Source: Roseburia sp. (GTDB taxonomy: Bacteria > Bacillota > Clostridia > Christensenellales > Pumilibacteraceae). From it: a stretch of DNA of 64,000 nt. Under the pieces are notes generated by a model. The model did not search any database. It was not told the origin of the DNA and saw nothing but the letters and a program-made list of their open reading frames with translations. Within the stretch, counting starts at the first letter, position 1. Each line of letters starts with the position of its first letter. This document shows, piece by piece, positions 40,627 through 59,890 of the stretch. The stretch covers positions 1 to 64,000 of the forward strand of contig JAMPDA010000008.1 of the NCBI GenBank assembly GCA_023665905.1. The letters run 5' to 3'. A program made the position numbers and the translations under genes.

Positions 40627-40647
40627 GGTTGTTCCTGAAAAATTTTT

Positions 40648-40923
40648 GATTCGAGGAGCATTTTTGCCCGCTTGCGCAATCACAGATTGAATAGTTATTT
40701 ATTACGTATTCTATCGAAGTGAGTGGTAAGCAATGGGTCGCGCAGCATTTGGCTGCCGACGACGACAAATTTGGTGTACTTACCATACAAGTAGATTTGC
40801 GCGCTTGCGCAAGCAAATCTGCGCCGTATGGGCAACCGAAAGTTATACCCCGCGGCTTGCCGCGGAAAGCGTGCGAAGCACGCGGGTCCAGGGCTTGCCC
40901 TGGGGTATAATACCTAATTTATT
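40648..40923 (-). repeat. B-family interspersed repeat, copy 1
   Basis: Read on the minus strand it starts AATAAATTAGGTATTATACC and ends near GCTCCTCGAATC, the same frame of words as copies at 55604 and 59748. Inside are several GC-rich palindromes such as CCAGGGCAAGCCCTGG and CGCGTGCTTCGCACGC. Outer words AAATTAGGTATTATACC and the inner GGTGTACTTACC/CACCAAATTT are inverted. It separates the unknown gene at 40626 from tetR. Confidence 0.7.
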
Positions 40924-42407: not shown

Positions 42408-42443
42408 CAAAAAACGGGACACGGTGTTACCCGTATCCCGTTT
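42408..42443 (-). terminator. Terminator after the phage holin gene
   Basis: Minus strand AACGGGATACGG and CCGTGTCCCGTT form a 12-bp stem followed by TTTTTTG, at the end of the phage module operon. It is similar in sequence to the terminator at 36381-36421. Confidence 0.85.
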
Positions 42444-42455
42444 GCATTGCGGCGG

Positions 42456-42764
42456 CTATGCGTTTCCGTCCGATCGCGCGGCGGCGTCCGACTTCGACGT
42501 TTCCGTTTCCGTTTTCGTGGCGTCCGACGCGCCGGCGGCGTTTTCGCCGTTAAACAGTTCGTCCGCGACACTCGCGGCGCTTCCCGAAGCGCTCTGCGGC
42601 GCGGACACTATGCCGAACATCACCAGGATCGAGCACACCGCGTTTATCACCGCGCTTGCCGTGTCGTCGCCTATCTCCACGCCGAACGAGCCGAGCGCCA
42701 AAAACACGGCGCTTATCATGCCCACCCAGAACCCGACGCTTTTGATACGTTCTTTGAGCTTCAT
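42456..42764 (-). CDS. Phage holin, phi LC3/LLH-like
   Basis: 102 residues. The N-terminal KLKERIKSVGFWVGMISAVFLALGSFGVEI, with two hydrophobic segments (about 10-28 and 36-58), matches the class II holin pattern of Firmicute phages. The C-terminal 40 residues are Ala/Ser/Thr/Asp rich and hydrophilic. Holins form lesions in the membrane at a timed moment. No endolysin gene follows, unlike the usual holin-lysin cassette. A GGGAGG site precedes the ATG. It is the last gene of the phage-derived operon before the terminator. Confidence 0.8.
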   Translation of the reverse strand: MKLKERIKSVGFWVGMISAVFLALGSFGVEIGDDTASAVINAVCSILVMFGIVSAPQSASGSAASVADELFNGENAAGASDATKTETETSKSDAAARSDGNA

Positions 42765-42765
42765 G

Positions 42766-43656
42766 TCACCTCCCGTACTTGTCGTACAGCTTGTAATAGT
42801 AGTAGTCCGAAAGATGGTCGCGATAGAGCGTGTGGTTGCGCACTTCTTTGCGCGCCTGCTCGGAGCTGAGCGCCGACAGATACTCGTCCATCTTGGCGTA
42901 GACGGCTTCGTATATATCGTCGCGCTCTTTTTCGGACAGCGTGTCGAGCGAGCTCTCTTTGCTCTTTTGATTGAGCGCCGCGGTGTAGAGATCGCTTTCC
43001 GTCTTTGCTCTGTTCGCGTCGAGCTGAGCCTGCTTTACGGCGATGTCGTTGTTGTACTTGAGCGCTTCCGTCGCCTTTTTGTCGCGCTCGGCTTTGAGCT
43101 CGTCGAGCTTTTGACTGAGCTTGACCGCGTACGCGAGGTTGAACTCGTCGAGCGCCGTTTGCAGTTTTGCGCCCACTGCCGATATCTCGCCGTCCAGCTC
43201 GGATATCTGCTTGCCGTAGCTGTTGCGCGTATCGGCGGCTTTTGCGAGGTATTCGCTTTCGAGTCCGGCTTTTTCTGTCGCGGCTATGGAAGATCGGGCG
43301 AGCCCGCGCTTTATCACGTCGTTGTCTATGCCGCGCGCGGCGGACGCATACGCGCTGTCGAGCGCAGCGAGCTCGCTCTGCAACGCCGAAACATACGCGT
43401 CGCGCTTGGCGGTCATAGTCTTTTCGTCGTTGGCGCTGCTCTCGCGAATGGAGTTAAGCTTGTCCGTCTTGTACTCGTCCAGGCTTCGCTCGGCTACTAT
43501 CTTGAGATACTCGTCGCTCGGCGCGTCGTACGACATCTGCTTGAGCGTGACGGCAGGGAGCGTCGGCTTAGCCACGCTGTTCTCTACCGTTTCGAGCTTT
43601 TTTATCTCGTCCTCGAGCTTGCTTCTCGAATCGGAATTGTCATTGATCATTGCCAT
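42766..43656 (-). CDS. Coiled-coil structural protein of the phage module
   Basis: 296 residues, nearly all helical with long heptad-like stretches at about 100-260 and a Tyr-rich end (YYYYKLYDKYGR). No catalytic motif. In P22-like phages a coiled-coil trimer plugs the portal (needle) or is ejected with DNA; either role would fit this position after the connector genes, but no family match can be claimed. The ATG overlaps the previous small gene by 17 nt. Confidence 0.6.
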   Translation of the reverse strand: MAMINDNSDSRSKLEDEIKKLETVENSVAKPTLPAVTLKQMSYDAPSDEYLKIVAERSLDEYKTDKLNSIRESSANDEKTMTAKRDAYVSALQSELAALDSAYASAARGIDNDVIKRGLARSSIAATEKAGLESEYLAKAADTRNSYGKQISELDGEISAVGAKLQTALDEFNLAYAVKLSQKLDELKAERDKKATEALKYNNDIAVKQAQLDANRAKTESDLYTAALNQKSKESSLDTLSEKERDDIYEAVYAKMDEYLSALSSEQARKEVRNHTLYRDHLSDYYYYKLYDKYGR

Positions 43657-43813
43657 GTCCTTCGTACTTCTCCCTATACAGTCGATATTTGAACAGTTCG
43701 TAATCTCTTACGATATCGTGTCCGGCGCGCGCAAGCTTTTGCTTTCCGGCTTCGCTCCTGTCGCGCTCGTCCGTTTCTTCGGCGCGATCCGCATTTTCCG
43801 TCACACCGGACAT
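43640..43813 (-). CDS. Small phage-module protein, 57 aa
   Basis: The frame from ATG 43813 to TGA 43642-43640 encodes 57 residues, charged throughout, with ARAGHDIVRDYELFKYRLYREKYEG in its second half. It overlaps the BhlA-like gene by 13 nt at its start and the coiled-coil gene by 17 nt at its end, the dense overlap pattern of phage operons. It is too short for common gene finders. The function is not recognisable. Confidence 0.55.
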   Translation of the reverse strand: MSGVTENADRAEETDERDRSEAGKQKLARAGHDIVRDYELFKYRLYREKYEGHGNDQ

Positions 43814-44118
43814 GCCGCACCTCCGTCGTTCTTTCTCGCGATCTTTTCGGCGCGGCGCGGCACGACGGCGGACTTTACGGCGGCGGTGTCCGACTTGACC
43901 GCTTTGACGGCGGTAAGCAGACTGCCCGCGTCGTCCTTTATGTCCTCGGTATCCGCCTTGACCGACGACACGACGCCCAATCTGTCCGAAAGCGAGCGTA
44001 TCGTCCGCGTGTAATTATCCTCGCGCCGCCTGCTGTCGCGCAGTTCGTACACGAGCAGACCGCAAAACAGCACCGCCCACAGTCCGTTCGCGACCACGAG
44101 CGATATTATTTCGTCCAT
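43801..44118 (-). CDS. BhlA/UviB-like holin
   Basis: 105 residues. A single N-terminal membrane segment (LVVANGLWAVLFCGLLVYEL) is followed by RRREDNYTRTIRSLSDRL and an alternating SVKADTEDI/TAVKAVKSDTAAVK region, the layout of BhlA and UviB, small proteins tied to bacteriocin or holin function in Firmicutes. Together with the 42456 gene the module has two potential holins. A short gap precedes the beta-rich protein gene upstream. Confidence 0.75.
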   Translation of the reverse strand: MDEIISLVVANGLWAVLFCGLLVYELRDSRRREDNYTRTIRSLSDRLGVVSSVKADTEDIKDDAGSLLTAVKAVKSDTAAVKSAVVPRRAEKIARKNDGGAACPV

Positions 44119-44145
44119 GTTGAAATTCCCCCAACCAATATAATA

Positions 44146-44493
44146 CTATTTTTCGCACGCGCCCAAAACGAGCGCGAGCGCGTTGCTCCTTGCGGCGGAG
44201 AGCTTGAGCTCGCCCGTCCCGACGGGCAGTACGCCCACTATCGGCGACGACCGCGTAGCTATTTGCTTGCCCGCAAAGTCGAGCGAGCAGCTTCCGCCGT
44301 CGAACACCGCGATCACCGCCGCGCCCTGCGAAACCGCAACCGTGCCGAATGTGGTATACGAAGTTCCGCCGGCGGTGGCTGTGACGCCCGAAAGTACGGT
44401 CGCGCCCGTACTGCGCTTTAAGAGCGCGCGCACCGCCTCTATGCGCACCGAATTGTCCTCCACGCCGAGCAGCGCGCGGTTTATCTTGTCCAT
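44146..44493 (-). CDS. Beta-rich small structural protein
   Basis: 115 residues from the ATG at 44493 with GGAGGG 5 nt upstream; the longer frame overlaps the hub gene. After a short helix (MDKINRALLGVEDN) the protein is Gly, Ala, Ser, Thr and Val rich, resembling fibre or decoration domains (GVTATAGGTSYTTFG). It probably decorates the particle or tail hub. No family is certain. Confidence 0.6.
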   Translation of the reverse strand: MDKINRALLGVEDNSVRIEAVRALLKRSTGATVLSGVTATAGGTSYTTFGTVAVSQGAAVIAVFDGGSCSLDFAGKQIATRSSPIVGVLPVGTGELKLSAARSNALALVLGACEK

Positions 44494-44507
44494 GATCCCT
44501 CCGAAAT

Positions 44508-45899
44508 TCAAAACACCGAGTAGATGAGCGTCGGCGGCTTTACGTCGCAGTCTTCCGCTTGCGAATCGACAGACACCGAAAACTTTTTGCACTGCGCGTT
44601 GACACGCACTTTGCGATCGCCTGCTTTTACGGCAAAAGTTTTCGTCTTTTTCTCCGTCGCGACCGAAAGCGCGATGTCGGAGCTCGAGCGAATATGTATC
44701 TCACGAAGCGCCTTGCTCTTGTCCGGCATAGCGAGATCTGTGACGGGACTTTGCCAATACTTGGGCAGCACCGTATCGAAACGCTTGCCGTTTTTGGTGA
44801 CTACGCCTGCCGACGACGCTTCGCACGCGACGAGCATATCCTCGCCGAGATACGTACACGAATTCATGAACCGAATATCCAGCCCGCGCGCTATCGAATA
44901 CTCGCCCGTCGCCGTGTCGAATACGAGCAGCGCGTTTGCGACATACTCCTCGGCTTCGCACCCGACCGCCTTTCCGTCCGGAAAATTCATTTTGCAGGAG
45001 AGGTAGTATTTGCCGTTATGGAACGCGCACGCGCACGAGTCCGACGCTTCGATGAGCCCGTCGAGATTGCCGAGAACGCGCGTGCAGTCGTACCCGTCGA
45101 ACATGTACAGTCCGTCGGACGCGAGGAACATTATGCACGAGCCGCACGTGGCTATGCTAGACGGGAATATCCTGCCTGCCGAAACGAAAAGATTGACCAC
45201 CGAAAATTCGCTCTGATCGGCGTACGCGGTCACGCGGCTTATGCCGTGGTCGCGGAATATGTACAGATAGCTTCCGAACGACACGACCTTGTTGAGGTCG
45301 CCGCGCTCGTCCAAAAGCTCTATAAATCCGCCGGCGTCCGCGCCGATAGACCAATTCGTCGGATCGAGGTCGTCCGAAAAGAACACCTTTGTGGGCTCTT
45401 CCTTGCTCGTCACGAACATCCGCTCGTAATGCAACGCCATAGACGATATCGTCGGCGTATTCTCGTGCTCGGTAAACGCGGAACCGTCCCAAGTAAAGAG
45501 TTTTCTGCCCTCGCACGACATCAGCAGCACGTCCTTGGAGTTGAGCCGGTAATTGAGAGCGGTCATCGGCGCGTATGAAAAAGTGCTGATAAACCGCATC
45601 TTTTCCTTGTACGAATCGTAGTAGCGTATCCTGCCGTTTGCGTACTGCATGACGTACTGTTCTACGTATTTTCCGGCTTCTTCCGAATAGTATCGATACA
45701 CCCAATATCGCGAAATGTCAGTCGGGACCGCCGCGTGCGTCGATACGCCGTAGCCCACTTTGAGCGCGCCCGACGTGAAGTCGTAGTTGTAGCACAGCGG
45801 CGAAACGTTGAAGTCTATCACGCTGCTGTCGCGCTTGCTGTCTATTGCCCTGAATGCTCCGACGCGCTTTCTGTAGCGCGTCCGCGTAGGTATTTTCAT
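44508..45899 (-). CDS. Propeller-like tail hub or DNA stabilisation protein (P22 gp10-like)
   Basis: 463 residues from the ATG at 45899 (GGGGTGA upstream). It is beta rich, with repeated aromatic strands such as YLYIFRDHGISRV, CIMFLASDGLYMFDGYD and KYYLSCKMNF, consistent with a beta-propeller. Its position after the 203-aa connector and its length match P22 gp10, the packaged-DNA stabilisation and hub protein. Only gene order and general fold support this; a profile search would be decisive. Confidence 0.6.
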   Translation of the reverse strand: MKIPTRTRYRKRVGAFRAIDSKRDSSVIDFNVSPLCYNYDFTSGALKVGYGVSTHAAVPTDISRYWVYRYYSEEAGKYVEQYVMQYANGRIRYYDSYKEKMRFISTFSYAPMTALNYRLNSKDVLLMSCEGRKLFTWDGSAFTEHENTPTISSMALHYERMFVTSKEEPTKVFFSDDLDPTNWSIGADAGGFIELLDERGDLNKVVSFGSYLYIFRDHGISRVTAYADQSEFSVVNLFVSAGRIFPSSIATCGSCIMFLASDGLYMFDGYDCTRVLGNLDGLIEASDSCACAFHNGKYYLSCKMNFPDGKAVGCEAEEYVANALLVFDTATGEYSIARGLDIRFMNSCTYLGEDMLVACEASSAGVVTKNGKRFDTVLPKYWQSPVTDLAMPDKSKALREIHIRSSSDIALSVATEKKTKTFAVKAGDRKVRVNAQCKKFSVSVDSQAEDCDVKPPTLIYSVF

Positions 45900-45960
45900 A
45901 ATGCTCACCCCACTTTCGCTCGCCGATATATCGGAAGCCCATCGCGCGTTACGCGCTCTT

Positions 45961-46572
45961 TCATATCCACGCCCTTGCGCCCATTTGCGCGCGGCGCGAA
46001 AGGCGCTTTTTTTCGGACTCGGCGCCGTATCTCTGATCCCAAATCTGCGCCTCGTCCGTCCTGCCCGTTATGAGGCAGTAGTCGCGGCAGACGAGAAACA
46101 GCAGTATACATTCGTCCGCCGCCGCGCCCGTTTCCACATCGTCGTCGAGATTTTTGTCGGACGGCACGACCGTGTATTTAACGGTGTATGCGCCGTTTGC
46201 CGGCACCTTGAGCCCGAGCGAGTCGAACATATACCGCACCGACACCCCGTACCGCTTTACCGAGCGCACCGACGACGGCTGCTCCGCGAACGCCGCGAGC
46301 GGTATCACGCCGTCCGTCACGGTAAACTCCCGCGTGCGGCATATCGGAAATCCGTCCAGACACAGTTCCGCCGCCGCGAGGTTGACGCACTTTATGAGCG
46401 TGCGCACGTCGGCGTCGTCGATAGCGGAGATCTGCGACGCCGTGCCGCCGTTCGCGTTTTCACCCGTTTCGCCTGTTTCGGTCGTTTCTTCGTCCGCCGC
46501 CGCGAGCGCCGCTTCTATATCGTCCGCCTGCAAAAGCGCCGCGGCGGAGATAGCTATTTGTCTTACCGTCAT
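45961..46572 (-). CDS. Head-to-tail connector protein (P22 gp4-like position)
   Basis: 203 residues from the ATG at 46572. It is helical and acidic between about residues 18 and 45, with a conserved-looking middle (DVRTLIKCVNLAAAELCLDGFPICRTREFTVTDGVIPL) similar to DNA-packaging connector proteins of the gp4/gp6 type. It lies between the capsid and hub genes, as gp4 does in P22. The AGGAGG site is 12 nt from the ATG, slightly long. A gap of 61 nt before the hub gene has no other frame. Confidence 0.6.
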   Translation of the reverse strand: MTVRQIAISAAALLQADDIEAALAAADEETTETGETGENANGGTASQISAIDDADVRTLIKCVNLAAAELCLDGFPICRTREFTVTDGVIPLAAFAEQPSSVRSVKRYGVSVRYMFDSLGLKVPANGAYTVKYTVVPSDKNLDDDVETGAAADECILLFLVCRDYCLITGRTDEAQIWDQRYGAESEKKRLSRRAQMGARAWI

Positions 46573-46595
46573 TATGCTTTCCTGCCTCCTTTCGG

Positions 46596-46907
46596 CTATG
46601 CGATACTCGACGCTATCCTGTCCGCCGCCGCCTTTGCGCGCGCGAGCTCTTTCGCGGCGTTTTCGCGCTCCATGCGCTCGACTATCTCGGCGACGCGTTC
46701 GGCGCGCGTATAAAGCACGCGCCGAACAGTACGCTCGTCGAGAGTGTCGAACGGCAGGACCAAGCACAGCGTCGAAGGCGCGCAACGGCTGTTGTGCACC
46801 TCGAACTTTCCGGTCTTGTAGTTGAGAAACACGAAATAACCGTCGTCTATGGTCTTGAGCCGCCGACAAACGCCGAACAGGTCGTCCTCTATGACGCGTC
46901 CCGTCAA
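46596..46907 (-). CDS. Small phage-module protein with TTG start
   Basis: 103 residues. The TTG start at 46907 overlaps the capsid TGA stop (TTGA) and has GGGGAT 10 nt upstream. The first half is beta rich with an aromatic GYFVFLNYKTGKFEV strand, and the last 35 residues are a Glu/Ala/Arg helix. It lies where decoration or head-completion proteins are found. I do not recognise the family. Confidence 0.6.
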   Translation of the reverse strand: MTGRVIEDDLFGVCRRLKTIDDGYFVFLNYKTGKFEVHNSRCAPSTLCLVLPFDTLDERTVRRVLYTRAERVAEIVERMERENAAKELARAKAAADRIASSIA

Positions 46908-48052
46908 GAACGCGTTATCCCCGTGAGCATAGCCTGACCGTTAGGCTTTTGGCAGATGAGGTCGCAGTATTTGACGAGCGTCGCCGTGTACGTGGGTTTG
47001 CCCTGGTTTTGGCGCAGGATCTTGCCGTTTTCCGTTTCCAAGAACCGCCAATCGCAGAGCTGGTGAAGCTTGAACGCCTTGGTGTTGAGCAGGTACATAG
47101 TGCCGTCGGGCACGAACCTGTCGTACACGAGCGGCAAGCCGTTGTACGAAAGCGTTTTAAAGCCGCCGTCCAATTCCATGACGTCGATGTTGCGCTTGTA
47201 CGACGACATGTACGTTATGAACGAGTACTTGACGTCCTGCGAGCACGAGATAAAGTCCACCGCCGAGCCTGCGTCGTTTTCAAGCGCGTCTATCGCTTCC
47301 TGAATGACGATCTCGTCTATGGCGTCGTTCACGTTTTTGGTGTACGGCTTAAGGAAGGGATGCGCGGATTTTTGCACGCCGTATACGGTCGTACCGTTGA
47401 ACAGCGCGCCGAGGCCGGTTATCTCCTTGTCTTTAGAGCCCTGCACGTACATCGCGTCGCCGTCGGCGATCGTAACAGTCGCGCTGTCGAGCGTCACCTT
47501 TTTGGCGGCGCGATCGACGTACGTTATGCGCGCCGTACCTTTTTTAACGCCTGCGGACGAATAGATATCCACAACGAGCCCTTCGATGAGGTTGCGCGTG
47601 CTGTCCACGGTCGTTGCGCCGCCGCTCACCGAAAAGGTGCACAGTTTGCCGCTGCCGTCGCCGTACAGCATGCGGCCGAGGTTGAACTTGGACGCGTTCA
47701 AAAGCCCTTCCAGCTCGGCGTTCAAAAGGTCGGTGAACGCGCCTCTGCCGTCTGCGGAAGCCCGTATGGCTTTATCGGATATCTCTATCTGACCGTAGAG
47801 GTTTTTGAGCGTGGAAACAAACTGCAAGTAGTTGTTGCCGTACGCGGCGGGAAGGCTTCCGTCCTCGTCGCCCGCGCCGACGCCGCCGTTTATGCCGAAG
47901 CGCGCCGCCGTGCGTATTTCCTTTCCCCACACGTCGGCGGAGGTCTGCTCGATCTTGGACAGGAGCGGATTGACGCGCGTGTTCAAAAGGTCGGTCATCG
48001 TGCCCAAATACACCGTCTTAAGCGCGTTTTCCGCGTTTTGTAAAGTTACCAT
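46904..48052 (-). CDS. Phage major capsid protein
   Basis: 382 residues. Start TLQNAENALKTVYLGTMTDLLN and the phrase SADVWGKEIRTAARFGINGG, a middle insertion of beta strands, and an end with GKPTYTATLVKYCDLICQKPNGQAMLTGI are all typical of the HK97-fold capsid group found in Firmicute phages. An AAAGGAG site precedes the ATG. The scaffold and portal genes stand directly upstream, the order of almost all tailed phages. No protease gene accompanies it, so maturation presumably depends on the separate scaffold protein. Confidence 0.9.
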   Translation of the reverse strand: MVTLQNAENALKTVYLGTMTDLLNTRVNPLLSKIEQTSADVWGKEIRTAARFGINGGVGAGDEDGSLPAAYGNNYLQFVSTLKNLYGQIEISDKAIRASADGRGAFTDLLNAELEGLLNASKFNLGRMLYGDGSGKLCTFSVSGGATTVDSTRNLIEGLVVDIYSSAGVKKGTARITYVDRAAKKVTLDSATVTIADGDAMYVQGSKDKEITGLGALFNGTTVYGVQKSAHPFLKPYTKNVNDAIDEIVIQEAIDALENDAGSAVDFISCSQDVKYSFITYMSSYKRNIDVMELDGGFKTLSYNGLPLVYDRFVPDGTMYLLNTKAFKLHQLCDWRFLETENGKILRQNQGKPTYTATLVKYCDLICQKPNGQAMLTGITRS

Positions 48053-48095
48053 ATTATCTCCTTTGATTTTGTTTTTTTAGGTCCCGTAAATGTGC

Positions 48096-48710
48096 TTACA
48101 GAGCCAGCAATTCGTCGGCGAGTCGCTTGGCGTCGGAAAGCGTTTTGGGACGCTTTACGGGCGTCAGTACCGCCGCGCCCTGCGGCGACACAACGCTTCC
48201 GCCCAAGCCGAGTAATTTGCGTTTGTAGCGCGCGACGGCGGCGTCGAACACTTCGGGTATGTCGCAAAGCGCTTCGGCAAGCTCTGTAGCTCGCGCCTGC
48301 ACTTCCGCCACCACGTCGAGCTCGAACGCCGTGCCGCGTTCCGCACGTGCGCCGCCTGCCGCTATTGCGTCAGCTATAGCCGCACAGTCGGGCGCGCGAT
48401 GCGCCGTTTCGTGCTCGCATGCCGCGGCGATTTCGCAATGCGCGTTCGCCGCATGGCACGCTTCGTCCACCGAGCGCGGCTCCGACGGCTGTGCCGACTC
48501 GTCCGCCGTCGTCTTCGCTGTCTCGGTTCTATCCGATACTCCCTCGGCCTGCGCGCCGTTTGCTTCCGCCGCTTGTAGCTGTTTTATAAGCTGGCAGCGC
48601 TTTGTAAACTCGCTTTCGAGCGCGTTATAAGCCGCGAGGAGATCGTCCGGACTGTTGAACTTTCCTATCTTAGAGACCGATATCTCGGTTTGTTCTGTCG
48701 AATTTTTCAT
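48096..48710 (-). CDS. Phage scaffolding protein
   Basis: 204 residues. The long Ala/Glu/Thr-rich helical middle with many Cys and His (about 60-120) and a short basic C-terminus (KRKLLGLGG ... KRPKTLSDAKRLADEL) suit a scaffold that binds capsid through a positively charged end. It lies between portal and capsid genes, the canonical place. The unusual Cys/His content (CHAANAHCEIAAACEHETAH) is noteworthy. A GGAGGG site precedes the ATG. Confidence 0.75.
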   Translation of the reverse strand: MKNSTEQTEISVSKIGKFNSPDDLLAAYNALESEFTKRCQLIKQLQAAEANGAQAEGVSDRTETAKTTADESAQPSEPRSVDEACHAANAHCEIAAACEHETAHRAPDCAAIADAIAAGGARAERGTAFELDVVAEVQARATELAEALCDIPEVFDAAVARYKRKLLGLGGSVVSPQGAAVLTPVKRPKTLSDAKRLADELLAL

Positions 48711-48734
48711 GTATCTTTACCCTCCGAATGGTAT

Positions 48735-50657
48735 TCATAATGCAGATTCGGGCAATATATCGCCGAGCGCACCGCCCGACACGTCGCCGCGCGGCTCTGC
48801 CGAATATCCCGCCGCATACGCCGCTTCCGCGGTTTTCGCCGTATCGGGCGAAACCGCCGAAAGGAGCGCGCGGTGCTCCGCGATGTGTGCGCGCAGTCTG
48901 TCCGCCTTTTTGCCCGACGGACATTCGGTCAGCAGATACCGTATGTGCGCGTCGATGTGCGTCGAATGGTCGTCGTACTCGTCGAGCCTGTACTTGTCCT
49001 TGCAGTTTTCCGATTCGGCGCGGTTTATCTGCACCTGCGTCATGCCGACGTCGCCGTCCCAGCCGCCGTAGCCGAGCGCGTCCATAAACCTGCGTTTGGC
49101 GCTCTCCGTCATCTTGCCGTCGGCGTCGAACAGCAAGCCCATTTTGTACAGCTCGAACATCATGTTCTGGCGCATCGCCGGCGTGGACAGCAACTCGTTG
49201 TCCGTTTCAAACACCACGTCGTCGCTCGATATATCCGACGCCGACCAGCGCAACAGTTCCACTTGACCGTTTTTGCCGGCGATCCTGCTGAGCCGCGCGT
49301 CCGACCCGAACTGCTTATAAAGCCGCAGTATGTGCCGCGCTATCTCGCGCGCGGCGAGCCGCACGTATTCGGCGGAAAGCGACAGGCGCGTGTCGTCCTG
49401 CTCTATGAGCAGTTGGAGCGCAAGACCGCTCATCGCCGACGACGCTATCTTGGACGAGCGCATTATCTCGCTGACGCCGCTTATCTGAGTGAACTCGTTT
49501 AAAAGCCGCGTTTCTTCGGCGTCGAACTCGCTCGGCACGGAGCCGCAATCCACCATGCGCGGCGGCGTTGCGCCTTGACGGTAGACGAGTATCTTTCCGG
49601 GCGATATTCCCTCTTGCTCGAGATTGTCGATGTCCACCGAGCCGTCCTCCACCGCCATTACGCCCATGGACAGCCTGTTCATGAACTCGTGCTTGCGGTT
49701 TTTGACGGCGTTGTACGCGCGCTGAACGGGTATGAGCCGCTCGACTACGGACGCGCCGAAAAAGCAGCCGGCGTTGCCGAGCATGACCTGCTTTACAAAC
49801 GGAAAGCCGCGCCGACGGTCCGCGCAGTTCACATACGGAAGCGGACCGTAAAACAAAAGCACGCCGTTCGCGCACACTGCGAGCTCGCCCTCCGGCTTTT
49901 CGGGCGTGGGGAGCGTGTATCTTTCTATAAGCACGGCGCAGTTTTCGGCGGCGCGCGCCGTGAGTTTACTGAGCGTGCCGTCCGCCGTCAGTCCGCCGCT
50001 GACCGCCGCCGCGGAAAGCCCTATCACTTCGCTCTTTTCGGGCTCGACGCGCTTGCCGTACACGCGCTTTATCTCGTCCACGTCCACGGCGCGCGCACGA
50101 ATGACCGAGCGACAGTCGCCGAGGTTTTGCGCAAACACGCTGTCGGGATATATTTCAAACGGCGACACCACCTTTACGCACACGTCGCCCTCGAACGTTC
50201 CGTCCGATATCTCAAGTCCCGACTTGACGTCCCAACCGACGTAGTAAAAGCTCGTGCCGCATATCTCCGACCACATCGTGCCCTCGGTGAGCAGTGCGTC
50301 CATATCCAGCTTGTCGCACGTCGAGGCGAGTATCTTCGACGCGTTCTTAGCCGTCTTGATGTCGCCGTCGTCCGACGAGAACGGGCGCACGGTAAGCGAC
50401 GGACGCACGGTGTTGAGCTTTGCGAGCCGAGTTTCCACGATAGTCGAAATGTGATTAAACACCTCGCGCTCCTGCCAATAGTAGTCGCGCTCGACGTCCG
50501 TTATCTCGCCCGTGACCGCCGCCGTGCAATACTGATTGCCCATGTAGAAATTCATATTGAGCCGCCACTGCGTTTCGTACGGCCGCCGCGCCTCGGCGCG
50601 CGCCTCGAAATCGCGTTTGAGCTCAGCCGTTATGTTTTCCTCGTATTCCCGTTTCAT
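48735..50657 (-). CDS. Phage portal protein, P22-like
   Basis: 640 residues. The N-terminal RRPYETQWRLNMNFYMGNQY, FNHISTIVETRLAKLNTVRP and a middle with WDVKSGLEISDGTFEGDV and YPDSVFAQNLGDCRSVI agree with the portal family of podovirus-like phages (P22 gp1 is 725 residues). The portal forms the dodecameric ring at one capsid vertex through which TerL pumps DNA. Its ATG overlaps the stop of the zinc protein gene (ATGA). The downstream neighbour is the scaffold gene after 24 nt. Confidence 0.9.
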   Translation of the reverse strand: MKREYEENITAELKRDFEARAEARRPYETQWRLNMNFYMGNQYCTAAVTGEITDVERDYYWQEREVFNHISTIVETRLAKLNTVRPSLTVRPFSSDDGDIKTAKNASKILASTCDKLDMDALLTEGTMWSEICGTSFYYVGWDVKSGLEISDGTFEGDVCVKVVSPFEIYPDSVFAQNLGDCRSVIRARAVDVDEIKRVYGKRVEPEKSEVIGLSAAAVSGGLTADGTLSKLTARAAENCAVLIERYTLPTPEKPEGELAVCANGVLLFYGPLPYVNCADRRRGFPFVKQVMLGNAGCFFGASVVERLIPVQRAYNAVKNRKHEFMNRLSMGVMAVEDGSVDIDNLEQEGISPGKILVYRQGATPPRMVDCGSVPSEFDAEETRLLNEFTQISGVSEIMRSSKIASSAMSGLALQLLIEQDDTRLSLSAEYVRLAAREIARHILRLYKQFGSDARLSRIAGKNGQVELLRWSASDISSDDVVFETDNELLSTPAMRQNMMFELYKMGLLFDADGKMTESAKRRFMDALGYGGWDGDVGMTQVQINRAESENCKDKYRLDEYDDHSTHIDAHIRYLLTECPSGKKADRLRAHIAEHRALLSAVSPDTAKTAEAAYAAGYSAEPRGDVSGGALGDILPESAL

Positions 50658-50872
50658 TTGCCTGCGTCCTTTTTGGGCTTACGTCGCGCCGTTTCGACGG
50701 ACTTGGGAATTATCGCCGCGCCGATCGCGGAGTAAAGCTCGTTAAGGCACTTGTCGCAGGCGTAAATGCGACTGCGAATACCCACGCGGTCGAACTTGAT
50801 CGCGTGGACGGCGCGGTTCTTGCACGCGCCGAGCTCGCACCTTATGTTGTTTTTGCACTCTATTACTTCCAT
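50654..50872 (-). CDS. Small zinc-finger-like protein of the phage module
   Basis: 72 residues with cysteines at about 6, 12, 17, 39 and 42. CKNNIRCELGACKN and YACDKCLNEL look like a treble-clef or ribbon zinc site. The end is basic (RRKPKKDAGK). GGAGG precedes the ATG. It lies between the presumed small terminase-like protein and the portal gene. A DNA or protein binding role in packaging is possible. Confidence 0.6.
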   Translation of the reverse strand: MEVIECKNNIRCELGACKNRAVHAIKFDRVGIRSRIYACDKCLNELYSAIGAAIIPKSVETARRKPKKDAGK

Positions 50873-50890
50873 ACAGCCTCCTTGTATGTT

Positions 50891-51181
50891 TTAATCGGTC
50901 TTTCGCATAGCCGATACCGTCGCGCCGGCTTCCCTTTCGAGCTCCGAAAGCAGTCTGCGTTTTTCTATCTCGAGCTGCTCGTCGGACAGCTCGTCGGTGT
51001 CGTTGCTGTCGAATATAAGTTTCGCCGCGGAGATGTCGGGCGGAACGTCCTTTTTGGTGACGCGCTTTTTGACCAGCTCGAGCGTTCCATCCACCATGGC
51101 GTATTCTTCCACCGTTTCTTCCGCCTCGTAGCCGCACGCGCGCTTGACTACGGCGTCGAATATCTCGTCGCGAAGCATCAT
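50891..51181 (-). CDS. Packaging-associated small protein, possible terminase small subunit
   Basis: 96 residues. MLRDEIFDAVVKRACGY is followed by KKRVTKKDVPPDISAAKLIF, a lysine-rich turn and PP-D pattern often seen in Firmicute terminase-small-subunit-like proteins, and a helical end (DEQLEIEKRRLLSELEREAG). It starts 4 nt inside the end of terL and has GGAGG upstream. In many phages the small subunit comes before, not after, terL. The call is therefore only tentative. Confidence 0.45.
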   Translation of the reverse strand: MMLRDEIFDAVVKRACGYEAEETVEEYAMVDGTLELVKKRVTKKDVPPDISAAKLIFDSNDTDELSDEQLEIEKRRLLSELEREAGATVSAMRKTD

Positions 51182-52602
51182 GCTCGCCTCCTCGTCGCGC
51201 GCCGACGTATGAGCCGCTCTTTATCCAGCGCGATATCGCTTTTGGCGGCTTCGCGGCGCGGCGGCACGGGTCGGCTCATCAGGTAGTATCTGAGCTCGTC
51301 CAAACAGTGATCGTCCGTCTTGACCGGTCTGTCGCCGTCACCCCAGCGGTACGCTTTGAGCTCGCGGATAAGATTGACGCAGGTGTCGAAGATGAACAGT
51401 CGCGGCTTGCCGTCCGTCATCAGGTATTGCTTTACGCGGTTTATTCCGCTGAAAAGGTCCTTGTTGACGCGCGTGTCCACGAGTATGCCGCAGTCGCAGA
51501 ACAGCTCCGCCACCGACCTTTCGGCGTTGAGCGTGTGCTGCGACGCCGCGCTGTCTATGAGCGCTTCCACGCGCCCTCGCCCGTCCGTGTGCCAGCCGAG
51601 CGCCGCGCATATTTCCTTTATTGCGCGCGCGTGGTACTGCACCGACTTTCCGGCCTCGAAGTGCTCCGCCACGACGTACACATTGCCGTCGTAGTCCACC
51701 GCGTACCAATGGCAGGACAGCGGATTGTTCAAGCCCGGGTCTATCGACAGCCGATCCTGCCACTCGCGCGGAACGTCGAACGGCGGTATCACGTGCACGC
51801 GCTCGTCGAACTCGGTGTACACCGCGCCCTTTGCGTCCGCGAACCGCCCGTACCGCCTGACGTCGCGCTCCGCTTGCGTCATAGCCGCCGAAACGCGCTC
51901 CACCTCGTCGGGGTCGAGATACGGGTTGTCCGACCACTCCATGAAGATGTGCCACACTTCGGGATCGTCGTTGCAGTTGAGATATATGCGCTTGTACACA
52001 AACGTAAGCCCGAGCAGCGGCGTCATCGTGCCGAAAATAAGTCCCTTCCTGTCCACGACGCGCATCGCACATTCGTCGTAGATGTCCTCGGGCGGCTCCT
52101 CGTCGAACCACACGTAATCGAGCGACGCGCCGGCAAACTTATCCCGTCCCGCCTCGCACGTCTTAAAGCCGATAGTGCTGACGGTGCCGAACACGTTTTT
52201 AACGGCGATATAGTCGATTATCCCGCCCGACGGGCTCTGCGCTTTGCCGCTTTCCATCACGATATCCGCTATCCAATCGGGATTGAGATAGCGCAGTATT
52301 TTTTTCTGCGCGACGTCGCGCTGCACCCTGCGGCTGAGCGAAACGACCCAGCCGTCGGTGCGCTTGTTCTCCCTGTACGGATGTATGCCGCGCGCAAGCC
52401 ACACCGTTTCCGCCGCGCCGCACTCCGTCTTGCCCGTGCGGTTGCCGCCGAACACCCACCGATTGCGCTTTTGACAGCGGTGGAATTGCATTTGCTTTTC
52501 GTGGACCTTTTCGGTGTTGTAGCGCGCAAGCGCATTGTTTTTGTATCTTCGCTTTTGCTCGCGCTCTATCTTGAGTATTTTTCGTACGTTTTCTTTCAGC
52601 AT
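51178..52602 (-). CDS. Terminase large subunit
   Basis: 474 residues. The ATPase has the Walker A-type loop GGNRTGKTE and a Walker B-like VWFDEEPP. The C-terminal nuclease shows LSIDPG, LIDSAAS and TDDHCLDELRY acidic clusters, the metal sites of the RNase H-like domain. It packages DNA into the procapsid, cutting at headful length. It is the first gene of the operon, with GAGGGG before the ATG. No housekeeping promoter is visible upstream, suggesting control by a specific activator. Confidence 0.92.
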   Translation of the reverse strand: MLKENVRKILKIEREQKRRYKNNALARYNTEKVHEKQMQFHRCQKRNRWVFGGNRTGKTECGAAETVWLARGIHPYRENKRTDGWVVSLSRRVQRDVAQKKILRYLNPDWIADIVMESGKAQSPSGGIIDYIAVKNVFGTVSTIGFKTCEAGRDKFAGASLDYVWFDEEPPEDIYDECAMRVVDRKGLIFGTMTPLLGLTFVYKRIYLNCNDDPEVWHIFMEWSDNPYLDPDEVERVSAAMTQAERDVRRYGRFADAKGAVYTEFDERVHVIPPFDVPREWQDRLSIDPGLNNPLSCHWYAVDYDGNVYVVAEHFEAGKSVQYHARAIKEICAALGWHTDGRGRVEALIDSAASQHTLNAERSVAELFCDCGILVDTRVNKDLFSGINRVKQYLMTDGKPRLFIFDTCVNLIRELKAYRWGDGDRPVKTDDHCLDELRYYLMSRPVPPRREAAKSDIALDKERLIRRRATRRRA

Positions 52603-52699: not shown

Positions 52700-53356
52700 A
52701 TGATATCGCTATGCAACGTATTGACGGCGCTGACGTTTTTTCTCATGCCGGCGCAAACGACGCTGTACGACGCGGCGCTGAAGCCCATTGTGGACCTGCC
52801 TGCCGGTTATTTCGTCATGCAAACGGCGGAAGCCGCCGCGGACGGATACATAGCCGTCGCTTACGACGACCTGACCGGCTTCGTAAAAGAATCCGCCGTG
52901 CAGGCGGTCGATTACCGTCCCGTCACAAAATACGAGCGCACGGTCACATTCAGGTGCGACAACGACGGTCAGCCCGTCAACCTGCGCGGCTCGCCCGAAC
53001 GCTCCGCACAAGTACTCAAGGTCATGAGCGAAGCGTCGAGCGGCAGATGCTACGGCACGACGCGCGGCGAAGCGCTTATAACCGGCGGCGACACGCTGTG
53101 GTACTACGTGGAAAACGACGGCGTGCGCGGCTACTGCTACTATGCGCACGTTTCGGTAACACCCACGCCGCCCAACGTGATAGAAAAAGAGCCGGACCCC
53201 GAACCGGAGCTCGAGCCGTCTCAGCCTACGGTTGCGGAAGTCGGCGAAGCCGCGTCCATGTCGTCTACAGCCGCGATAATATTCATTGTCGCGCTGTGCC
53301 TTCCCGTGCCGTTCATAATGTTCTATCTGTTCAGAAAGCCGAAAGACGGCTCTTGA
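52700..53356 (+). CDS. Secreted, membrane-anchored protein with an SH3-like domain
   Basis: 218 residues. A signal-peptide-like start (ISLCNVLTALTFFLMPAQT) is followed by an SH3-type region with FRCDNDGQPVNLRGSPERSAQVLKVM, the classic bacterial SH3b word PVNLRGSP. Then comes a Pro/Glu linker and a C-terminal membrane segment (about 190-210, AIIFIVALCLPVPFIMFYLF) with a basic end, so the domain should lie outside the cell. It is divergent from terL with 97 nt between starts. It probably binds cell wall. Whether it belongs to the phage module is not known. Confidence 0.75.
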   Translation: MISLCNVLTALTFFLMPAQTTLYDAALKPIVDLPAGYFVMQTAEAAADGYIAVAYDDLTGFVKESAVQAVDYRPVTKYERTVTFRCDNDGQPVNLRGSPERSAQVLKVMSEASSGRCYGTTRGEALITGGDTLWYYVENDGVRGYCYYAHVSVTPTPPNVIEKEPDPEPELEPSQPTVAEVGEAASMSSTAAIIFIVALCLPVPFIMFYLFRKPKDGS

Positions 53357-53791
53357 CTACTGCCGAGTATAGTAGCACACGGACGCCGTCGGCGCCGGAT
53401 CGGGCGCGCGGCGGCTTCGCGGCTTTCGCTTTATCTGCTTGAATAAATACGAAAACTCGCTCTGTGCGCGCTCGACGTCATAGCCGGCGCGCCGCATGTA
53501 CCGCTCCGCCGCGTCGAACAGCGGACTGTCCAGGCCGCCTGCGGCGCAACGGCACAGCATGTCGAACTCCCCGTCGAGCCCGCGCTTGATAAACGCGTGC
53601 AACACCGCAAGATTGCAAAGATCGACGCGCCTGTTATCGAGCGCAATAAGCGTTTCGACGACTTTGTGCGCGGGCAATGCCGTGTCGTGTATGACGACTT
53701 CTTGCTCGGCGTCTATTTTGTCCTGCAACCCGTAGATCAACGGAAAAATAAACAGTATATTCTCTATGGTTTTTCTCTTTGCTCGCTGCAT
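53357..53791 (-). CDS. Hypothetical protein, 144 aa
   Basis: AAGGAG precedes the ATG. Its stop lies directly next to that of the SH3-like gene (converging). It is helical, with a basic C-terminal part (KQIKRKPRSRRAPDP). No known motif. Its size and basic tail would fit a small phage late-gene regulator of the ArpU/RinA kind, but I see no motif that proves it. It ends the block of unknown genes beside the phage module. Confidence 0.55.
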   Translation of the reverse strand: MQRAKRKTIENILFIFPLIYGLQDKIDAEQEVVIHDTALPAHKVVETLIALDNRRVDLCNLAVLHAFIKRGLDGEFDMLCRCAAGGLDSPLFDAAERYMRRAGYDVERAQSEFSYLFKQIKRKPRSRRAPDPAPTASVCYYTRQ

Positions 53792-53951
53792 AACTACGCT
53801 CCTTTATTTATTTTACGAGCGCAGTGTATCACCGAATTACTGACAAATATATGTCAACATTAAATCAGCCACAAATATTATGAACAAAAAAATTAAAGTG
53901 CACAAAGCGAAGAAATCCGACAACCTTGCCGCGCGCTCTAACCTACTCTTT

Positions 53952-55480: not shown

Positions 55481-55603
55481 GCGCACGCGCTCAATAATCT
55501 TTATATCGGTAAAAACGCAACGGCATATTCCGCCGCCGCAAATCGAACGGCGTTGTCGCTAAACCCGTGTATTACACGTCTTGTTGCACAATACGCCGCA
55601 ATA

Positions 55604-55885
55604 TAAATTAGGTATTATACCCCAGGGCAAGCCACGAACCCGCACGGCAACTGAATGTTGCACGAAGTATTGCTTACGTTCTCGCTTATAATTGTGTGCA
55701 GGCTTGCCCTGGAGCACCCTACGGGTGTTCCGCTAGCCACGCGGCGGGGTATTACACCAAATTTGTCGTCGTCGGCAGCCAAATGCTGCGCGACCTATTG
55801 CTTACATGCTCACTTCGATAGAATACGTAATAAATAACTATTCAATCTGTGATTGTGCAAGCAAGCAAATTTGCTCCTCGAATAA
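55604..55885 (+). repeat. B-family interspersed repeat, copy 2
   Basis: Starts ATAAATTAGGTATTATACC and ends TTTGCTCCTCGAATAAAA. An inner CACCAAATTTGTCGTCGTC is shared with copies 1 and 3. It contains a stretch (about 55812-55858) matching copy 1 nearly completely. Oriented opposite to copy 1. Confidence 0.7.
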
Positions 55886-55916
55886 AAACGACCGAAAAGT
55901 TATCTCGGTCGTTTTT
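55884..55916 (-). terminator. Terminator after tRNA-Arg
   Basis: ACGACCGA and TCGGTCGT surround an 11-nt loop and have T/A-runs on both sides. It ends the minus strand tRNA transcript. Confidence 0.8.
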
Positions 55917-55919
55917 GGC

Positions 55920-55992
55920 GTTCACGGCGGGAATCGAACCCACAGTCTATCGCTTAGGAGGCGATTGCATTATCCTATTATGCTACGTGAAC
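55920..55992 (-). tRNA. tRNA-Arg (CCT)
   Basis: Minus strand acceptor GTTCACG/CGTGAAC, anticodon stem ATCGC/GCGAT with loop CTCCTAA giving anticodon CCT, and T-arm GTGGGTTCGATTCCCGC. No CCA encoded. Promoter at 56025-56053. Confidence 0.95.
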
Positions 55993-59717: not shown

Positions 59718-59747
59718 ATCATAACACAAACAATCGCCGCGTGTCAA
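59718..59747 (-). promoter_or_regulatory. leuS promoter, near-leaderless
   Basis: Minus strand TTGACA (59747-59742), 18-nt spacer, TATGAT (59723-59718), then 9 nt to the ATG. The -35 box lies at the border of repeat B3. Confidence 0.7.
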
Positions 59748-59890
59748 ATAAATTAGGTATAATACCCAGGGCAAGCCCTGGACACGCACGCTTCGCGTGC
59801 AAGTTCCGCCGCAAGCGGCGGTGTATTACACCTAATTTGTCGTCGTCGCAAATTTGCTCCCGCAAGCGGGCAAATTTGCTCCTCGAATAA
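59748..59890 (+). repeat. B-family interspersed repeat, copy 3 (short form)
   Basis: Starts ATAAATTAGGTATAATACCC and ends GCTCCTCGAATAAAAA. It contains palindromes around CCAGGGCAAGCCCTGG and CACGCTTCGCGTG. It lacks the middle block present in the other two copies. Confidence 0.7.

Follow-up and report, generated by a model that had tools for sequence, protein, structure and literature searches.

A stretch of 64,000 nucleotides from the genus Anaerocaecibacter (Pumilibacteraceae, Clostridia), comprising positions 1-64,000 of contig JAMPDA010000008.1 in assembly GCA_023665905.1 (hereafter the window), carries a phage-derived gene module at 42456-52602 on the minus strand. We conclude that this locus is probably a vertically inherited, podovirus-derived element of the host chromosome that resembles a gene transfer agent (GTA). 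That it is a domesticated podoviral element found across an order of Clostridia is well supported. The analysis establishes its gene content, predicted folds, conservation, selection and vertical inheritance, as well as the truncation of TerS.

The module consists of 14 minus-strand genes, each frame of which ends in one terminal stop. The genes for TerL, portal, scaffold, major capsid protein (MCP), adaptor and nozzle are arranged as the P22 genes 2-1-8-5-4-10, and this order, together with matching folds, identifies a P22-like podoviral virion module. Over 100 loci share this gene order, including the SH3-like gene and p144 next to the operon, and chance can therefore be ruled out as its cause. 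The features, listed in the direction of transcription of the operon, are as follows.

53823-53855, minus strand: operator palindrome with extended -10 promoter, in front of the p144 gene (GACA-N6-TGTCA ... TGnTAnACT)
53357-53791, minus strand: p144, putative late-gene regulator; helix-turn-helix (HTH) in relatives; adjoins the module across the family
52700-53356, plus strand: divergent SH3-like protein; weak SH3_3 match; oriented away from terL in the family and the order
51178-52602, minus strand: TerL, large terminase (PF03237, 2e-10; PF17289, 6e-6)
50891-51181, minus strand: TerS, small terminase, C-terminal half only, 96 aa (p96; phrog_309)
50654-50872, minus strand: small Cys-rich (zinc-finger-like) protein; position between terS and portal kept in the family and in phage relatives
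48735-50657, minus strand: portal (P22_portal PF16510, 5.4e-23; phrog_156, 1.7e-39); single copy in the genome
48096-48710, minus strand: scaffolding protein, assigned by position and by profile across relatives
46904-48052, minus strand: MCP (phrog_14242, 2.6e-55; NF033394, 7.1e-78)
46596-46907, minus strand: p103, small head/neck protein of 103 aa, kept behind MCP both in the order and in related phages
45961-46572, minus strand: head-tail adaptor of the podovirus gp4/SU10-adaptor type ("connector"; SU10_adaptor profile, AlphaFold, Foldseek)
44508-45908, minus strand: tail nozzle/hub, a beta-propeller podoviral short-tail protein (AlphaFold, Foldseek)
44146-44496, minus strand: short beta-rich protein of about 115 aa, a genus-specific family, in the slot of the "MDYGK" and receptor-binding-like genes of other genera
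43801-44118, minus strand: BhlA-type holin (PF10960, 2.4e-14)
43640-43813, minus strand: 57-aa protein, kept in part of the genus only
42766-43656, minus strand: DUF7934 coiled-coil protein, a marker of the module (PF25588, 3.3e-46)
42456-42764, minus strand: phiLC3-type holin (PF04531, phage_holin_1, 1e-4; phrog_297, 2.6e-10)
42412-42443, minus strand: intrinsic terminator with a 13-bp stem, end of the operon

A preliminary description of this DNA had reported a P22-ordered head module of 14 genes with open frames, chromosomal codon use and a strong terminator, and without tape measure, endolysin or integrase genes. The present analysis agrees with these points. The correlation of relative synonymous codon usage (RSCU) between the operon and the flanking genes was 0.97, and the 13-bp stem of the terminator lies at 42443-42412. 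Profile scans of the module's proteins revealed no replication, integration, lysogeny, endolysin or tape measure genes, and no integrase was seen in the module or its flanks. The P22 order given earlier also holds, but the "small protein" after terL is a shortened small terminase. The extent given earlier, 42456-52602, is that of the operon; the module itself extends further, to the SH3-like gene at 52700-53356 and p144. Judged by their conserved company, these two genes belong to the module, as both travel with it across the family. In the SH3-like protein, a hydrophobic stretch lies at the N-terminus and a membrane segment at the C-terminus. A sequence search of the Protein Data Bank with the MCP profile gave no match.

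The earlier description of the module as lacking a tail has to be revised. The hub and the connector were folded with AlphaFold from alignments of 52 and 38 sequences, respectively, and the resulting models had predicted local distance difference test (pLDDT) values of 93 for the nozzle/hub and 90 for the adaptor. In Foldseek searches, the nozzle matched the tail of Pseudomonas phage Pa223 (E 3e-21, template modelling (TM) score 0.79) and also VP1, GP4, SU10 and T7, and the matches of the adaptor included Pa223 and SU10 tail chains. Since the connector and the hub are thus a podovirus tail adaptor and nozzle, the module is not tail-less, and a tail-less capsid was rejected. The set of portal, adaptor and nozzle is complete. 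On the basis of these models, a particle made from the module would be short-tailed and podovirus-like.

The terminase genes bear on what such a particle would carry. In TerL, the Walker A motif (GGNRTGKT), the Walker B motif (VWFDEE) and the Asp positions of the nuclease domain are conserved in 14 species. TerS, the median length of which is 96 aa in 104 loci, matches only positions 200-248 of the 319 positions of phrog_309, and aligns to residues 55-131 of the 157-aa TerS of related phages whose head genes are arranged in this order (L260 and L267). The TerS of these phages keeps an N-terminal extension with an HTH-like sequence, the HTH being judged by eye with no profile run. The TerS of the Rhodobacter capsulatus GTA (RcGTA) likewise starts after a missing DNA-binding domain, which has been proposed as the cause of its sequence-blind packaging (PMC6854486), and the TerS of FpGTA, the GTA of Faecalibacterium, has no obvious DNA-binding domain (PMC12946183). 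The TerS in the window shows the same pattern as described for GTAs, with the N-terminal HTH domain lost and the rest kept (PMC6854486). These facts suggest that the motor would work without choosing its own genome, because the recognition half of TerS is lost and the motifs of TerL are intact. With the virus-recognition part of TerS gone, GTA-like packaging of the bacterium's own DNA is most likely, and random packaging of host DNA by this element is a likely reading of the sequences. The shortened TerS therefore makes the GTA interpretation more specific than the earlier proposal of a domesticated capsid candidate.

The distribution of the module was examined in related genomes. The capsid gene was found once per genome in all 20 Anaerocaecibacter genomes and in 16 of 17 genomes from the family's other genera. 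In the order, 237 of 396 sampled genomes carried it (202 of the 330 of good quality), nearly always as a single copy. It is rare in the class as a whole (26 of 391 genomes, mostly of this order or of one other genus), and strong class-level matches to DUF7934 are nearly confined to this order. The window was assigned to its genus from the named relatives that the capsid profile detected, three of which are isolates: Anaerocaecibacter muris CLA-AA-M11, Pumilibacter muris and Pumilibacter intestinalis. Several species share the chromosomal neighbours of the module, namely a hydrolase gene upstream, an HD-GYP gene downstream and leuS at a distance of 10-31 kb.

Comparison with LeuS pointed to descent along with the host. 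Distances among the MCP, TerL and portal proteins were correlated with LeuS protein distances (Mantel r of 0.63, 0.63 and 0.74, respectively; p 0.001). Within the genus, MCP (0.13) and TerL (0.15) diverged no faster than LeuS (0.18). A tree of the three head proteins recovered both genus and family with a support of 1.0 and had 9 splits in common with the LeuS tree, against 0.2 with shuffled labels; the LeuS sequence of one genome in this comparison, G026, was mis-extracted. The ratio of nonsynonymous to synonymous substitution rates (dN/dS) for 14 conserved genes, 12 of them in the operon, ranged from 0.09 (TerL) to 0.35 (adaptor). The hub and the adaptor are fast-evolving, and TerL and the capsid protein are slow-evolving. 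The preliminary description, which read the module as domesticated, had named dN/dS and the presence of the same locus at the same place in relatives as checks. The purifying selection, the gene order kept in more than 100 loci and the neighbours shared in several species all favour that reading, as do the single copy, the congruence with LeuS and the lack of att-like repeats.

The same description had named an integrase with attachment (att) sites, or frequent presence and absence in close strains, as signs of a mobile prophage, and the results speak against one. No att-like repeats were found around the module, and there are no direct repeats of 15 nt or longer between its flanks. No integrase, att sites, lysogeny genes or replication genes that would mark an active prophage were seen in it or its flanks, and it is universal in the genus. 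A prophage with att sites at the tRNA-Arg gene (55916-55992) was rejected, as this gene has no 13-mers in common with the 36-55.8 kb region. Inverted repeats of 80 and 53 nt at 40.6 and 55.8 kb proved to be copies of a dispersed repeat. This repeat is about 280 bp long and is located at 40644-40922, 55603-55888 and 59747-59875 and also on another contig; two of its copies flank the module in inverted orientation, and it was not found in the other Anaerocaecibacter loci examined. Elsewhere in the window, at 1734-2156, there is a pair of tRNA-Ile(GAT) and tRNA-Ala(TGC) genes, which is typical of an rRNA operon spacer.

The best annotated phages have 25-28% capsid identity to the module. Matches above 50% identity in IMG/VR are mostly short contigs with the same operon, which show p144 and the SH3-like gene wherever they reach that far, that is, they are chromosomal copies filed as viral. 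Many short "viral" entries (contigs L218-L254) are in this way fragments of the chromosomal operon. IMG/VR also contains phage-like contigs, 48-61 kb long, in which the head genes keep this order, at 36-47% identity. Four of these (L260, L266, L267 and L269), as well as Arthrobacter phage Jasmine and its relatives, have the order TerL, zinc protein, portal, scaffold, MCP, p103 and nozzle, and L260 has a DUF7934 homologue behind the nozzle. Unlike the module, these podovirus-type phages, with an MCP identity of 25-47%, carry a longer TerS, tail fibres, and amidase-like and resolvase genes. Outside the order, clusters of scaffold, MCP, p103, (connector) and nozzle genes without terL and portal were seen amid housekeeping genes such as serC/serA (L286 in genome G472 and L289 in G568), and scaffold and MCP alone near pyruvate-formate-lyase genes (L285 in G747). 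These three loci may represent further domesticated members of this capsid family.

Among known systems, FpGTA is the closest in kind. It is podovirus-like and about 40 nm in size, and packages about 8.5 kb of host DNA (PMC12946183). FpGTA I and II (Borodovich et al. 2026, PMC12946183) are, like the present module, chromosomal operons of about 10 kb in gut Clostridia that encode TerL, portal, scaffold, MCP, short-tail proteins and a small TerS in which no DNA-binding domain is obvious, have no replication genes, and are near-universal in their own genus. In a comparison of gene content and size taken from the paper (PMC12946183), rather than of sequence homology, the module and FpGTA are of one kind. 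The module differs in that terS follows terL, two holins are encoded in the same operon, and no endolysin or tail-fibre operon was found; it is also order-wide, whereas FpGTA was reported from one genus. RcGTA (Rhodogtaviriformidae) is similarly a vertically inherited caudoviral module with an intact TerL kept across a large clade. Its genes, however, are not all in one region, and the present module has a podoviral tail and an MCP of another family. PBSX of Bacillus subtilis, a myovirus-like killer particle, is likewise a Gram-positive domesticated phage-like element; here, in contrast, the tail is short and podoviral, with no receptor-binding protein detected. PBSX has been described as GTA-like, its packaged DNA not being injected (PMC12946183).

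For regulation, the preliminary description had noted that no housekeeping promoter precedes terL, and indeed a search directly ahead of this gene detected no sigma-70-type site. In other genera, p144 contains an HTH with matches to phage transcriptional regulators (ArpU-like) and to region 4 of sigma-70, and no HTH is detectable in the p144 of the window. A GACA-N6-TGTCA palindrome followed by an extended -10 lies upstream of p144 and is kept in the genus and family. A wider regulon around GACA-N6-TGTC was rejected, as only the p144 site fully matches the operator (0-2 mismatches) in the window's own genome. In other families of the order, the palindrome also occurs at or near HTH-WYL-type regulator genes (L187, L205 and L189), which suggests a WYL-type regulator as its candidate reader. 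This link is unsupported in the window's own genome because neither of its WYL genes carries the palindrome.

GTAs have been defined by particles formed from proteins derived from tailed phages, by an endogenized genome and by mostly vertical inheritance, and further by the encapsidation of mostly random host DNA, a head too small for the whole element, and delivery of the DNA (PMC9662315). The proteins of the module are, by sequence and predicted fold, of tailed-phage ancestry. The locus is fully endogenized, being a single chromosomal locus with no att-like repeats or integrase seen and with neighbours shared by many species, and the Mantel correlations and the congruence of the head tree with the LeuS tree indicate vertical inheritance and co-diversification. 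As to the remaining steps, namely particle formation, random packaging of host DNA, lysis and any delivery, we infer the following sequence of events. The p144 protein, encoded behind the palindromic operator, would switch the operon on in some cells. The scaffold, MCP, portal, adaptor and nozzle would build small short-tailed particles, which TerL and a TerS without its DNA-recognition half would fill with pieces of host DNA without choice of sequence. The two holins, one of the BhlA type and one of the phiLC3 type, suggest lytic release and would help to free the particles by lysis. Delivery of the packaged DNA to other cells would be the weakest step.

Several observations weigh against the GTA-like reading. 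The module has no detected endolysin gene, and a genome-wide search for lysins, limited to the families Amidase_2 and GH25, gave no match; on paper, lysis is therefore incomplete. Other genera encode, between the nozzle and the holin, a "MDYGK" protein of about 310 aa and a receptor-binding-like protein of about 600 aa, the latter so labelled from position and size only and giving no convincing match to PHROG families. This second protein has no homologue anywhere in the 20 Anaerocaecibacter genomes, which rules out its having moved elsewhere. Judged from these genomes, Anaerocaecibacter has lost the putative receptor-binding protein of its relatives, and this absence is what makes delivery the weakest step. 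ComEC occurs in almost every relative and, being near-universal, is weak support for DNA uptake. The head tree and the LeuS tree also show 4 strongly supported conflicts, so that their congruence is imperfect. Finally, at least one relative in the same family (G035, locus L290) is without scaffold and MCP, the portal running straight into p103; its adaptor, MDYGK and receptor-binding-like genes are also truncated. The L290 locus looks like natural decay, and the loss of scaffold and capsid in G035 means that the function of the module is dispensable in some lineages.

The missing receptor-binding-like protein, and the two holins with no endolysin detected, would also fit a domesticated particle that packs host DNA without delivering it, such as a PBSX-like killer or a device for lysis and DNA release, and the authors of the FpGTA study leave the same possibility open (PMC12946183). 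We regard this explanation as rather unlikely, since the DNA path from head to nozzle is complete and under purifying selection, and the fast-evolving beta-rich gene could be a reduced receptor-binding part. It is very improbable that the capsid was recruited for a role without DNA, such as storage or protein delivery. Elsewhere in the class, the scaffold and capsid genes of L285, L286 and L289 have no terL or portal beside them, and DNA-free reuse of this capsid family may therefore exist; in the present module, however, the TerL motifs are intact and conserved, and the portal, adaptor and nozzle are retained.

The absence of replication, integration, lysogeny and endolysin genes from the module, and of scaffold and capsid from one family member, would fit the remnant of a prophage, whether decaying or cryptic. 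This reading is nevertheless extremely unlikely, being already contradicted by a fixed, selected and single-copy distribution: all frames are open, dN/dS is 0.09-0.35, and there is one copy in essentially every genome of the genus and family. The existence of phages with the same head order would allow a satellite or mobile island that encodes a head and moves on its own or aided by a helper phage. Such an island is exceedingly doubtful for a single-copy module that is congruent with the host phylogeny, has the same neighbours in several species and shows no att-like repeats.

The GTA-like reading gains interest from the small number of known cases. The GTAs known beyond the Alphaproteobacteria are very few, and the first podovirus-like one, that of Faecalibacterium, was reported only in 2026. 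Tentatively, we consider a further proposal with two parts: that a podoviral GTA was anciently fixed over most of this order of Clostridia (at least 237 of the 396 sampled species), placing it among the most widespread Gram-positive GTAs, and that the Anaerocaecibacter branch, having discarded the receptor-binding protein, works in a new way, for example by DNA release or receptor-free delivery. The locus points to a fixed, selected GTA-like system in the greater part of an order of gut bacteria, and it raises two questions: what share of the gene flow among gut Clostridia these bacteria generate themselves, and in what manner a domesticated particle functions once its receptor-binding protein is gone. 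Both questions are testable, since carriers exist as isolates (A. muris CLA-AA-M11, P. muris and P. intestinalis).

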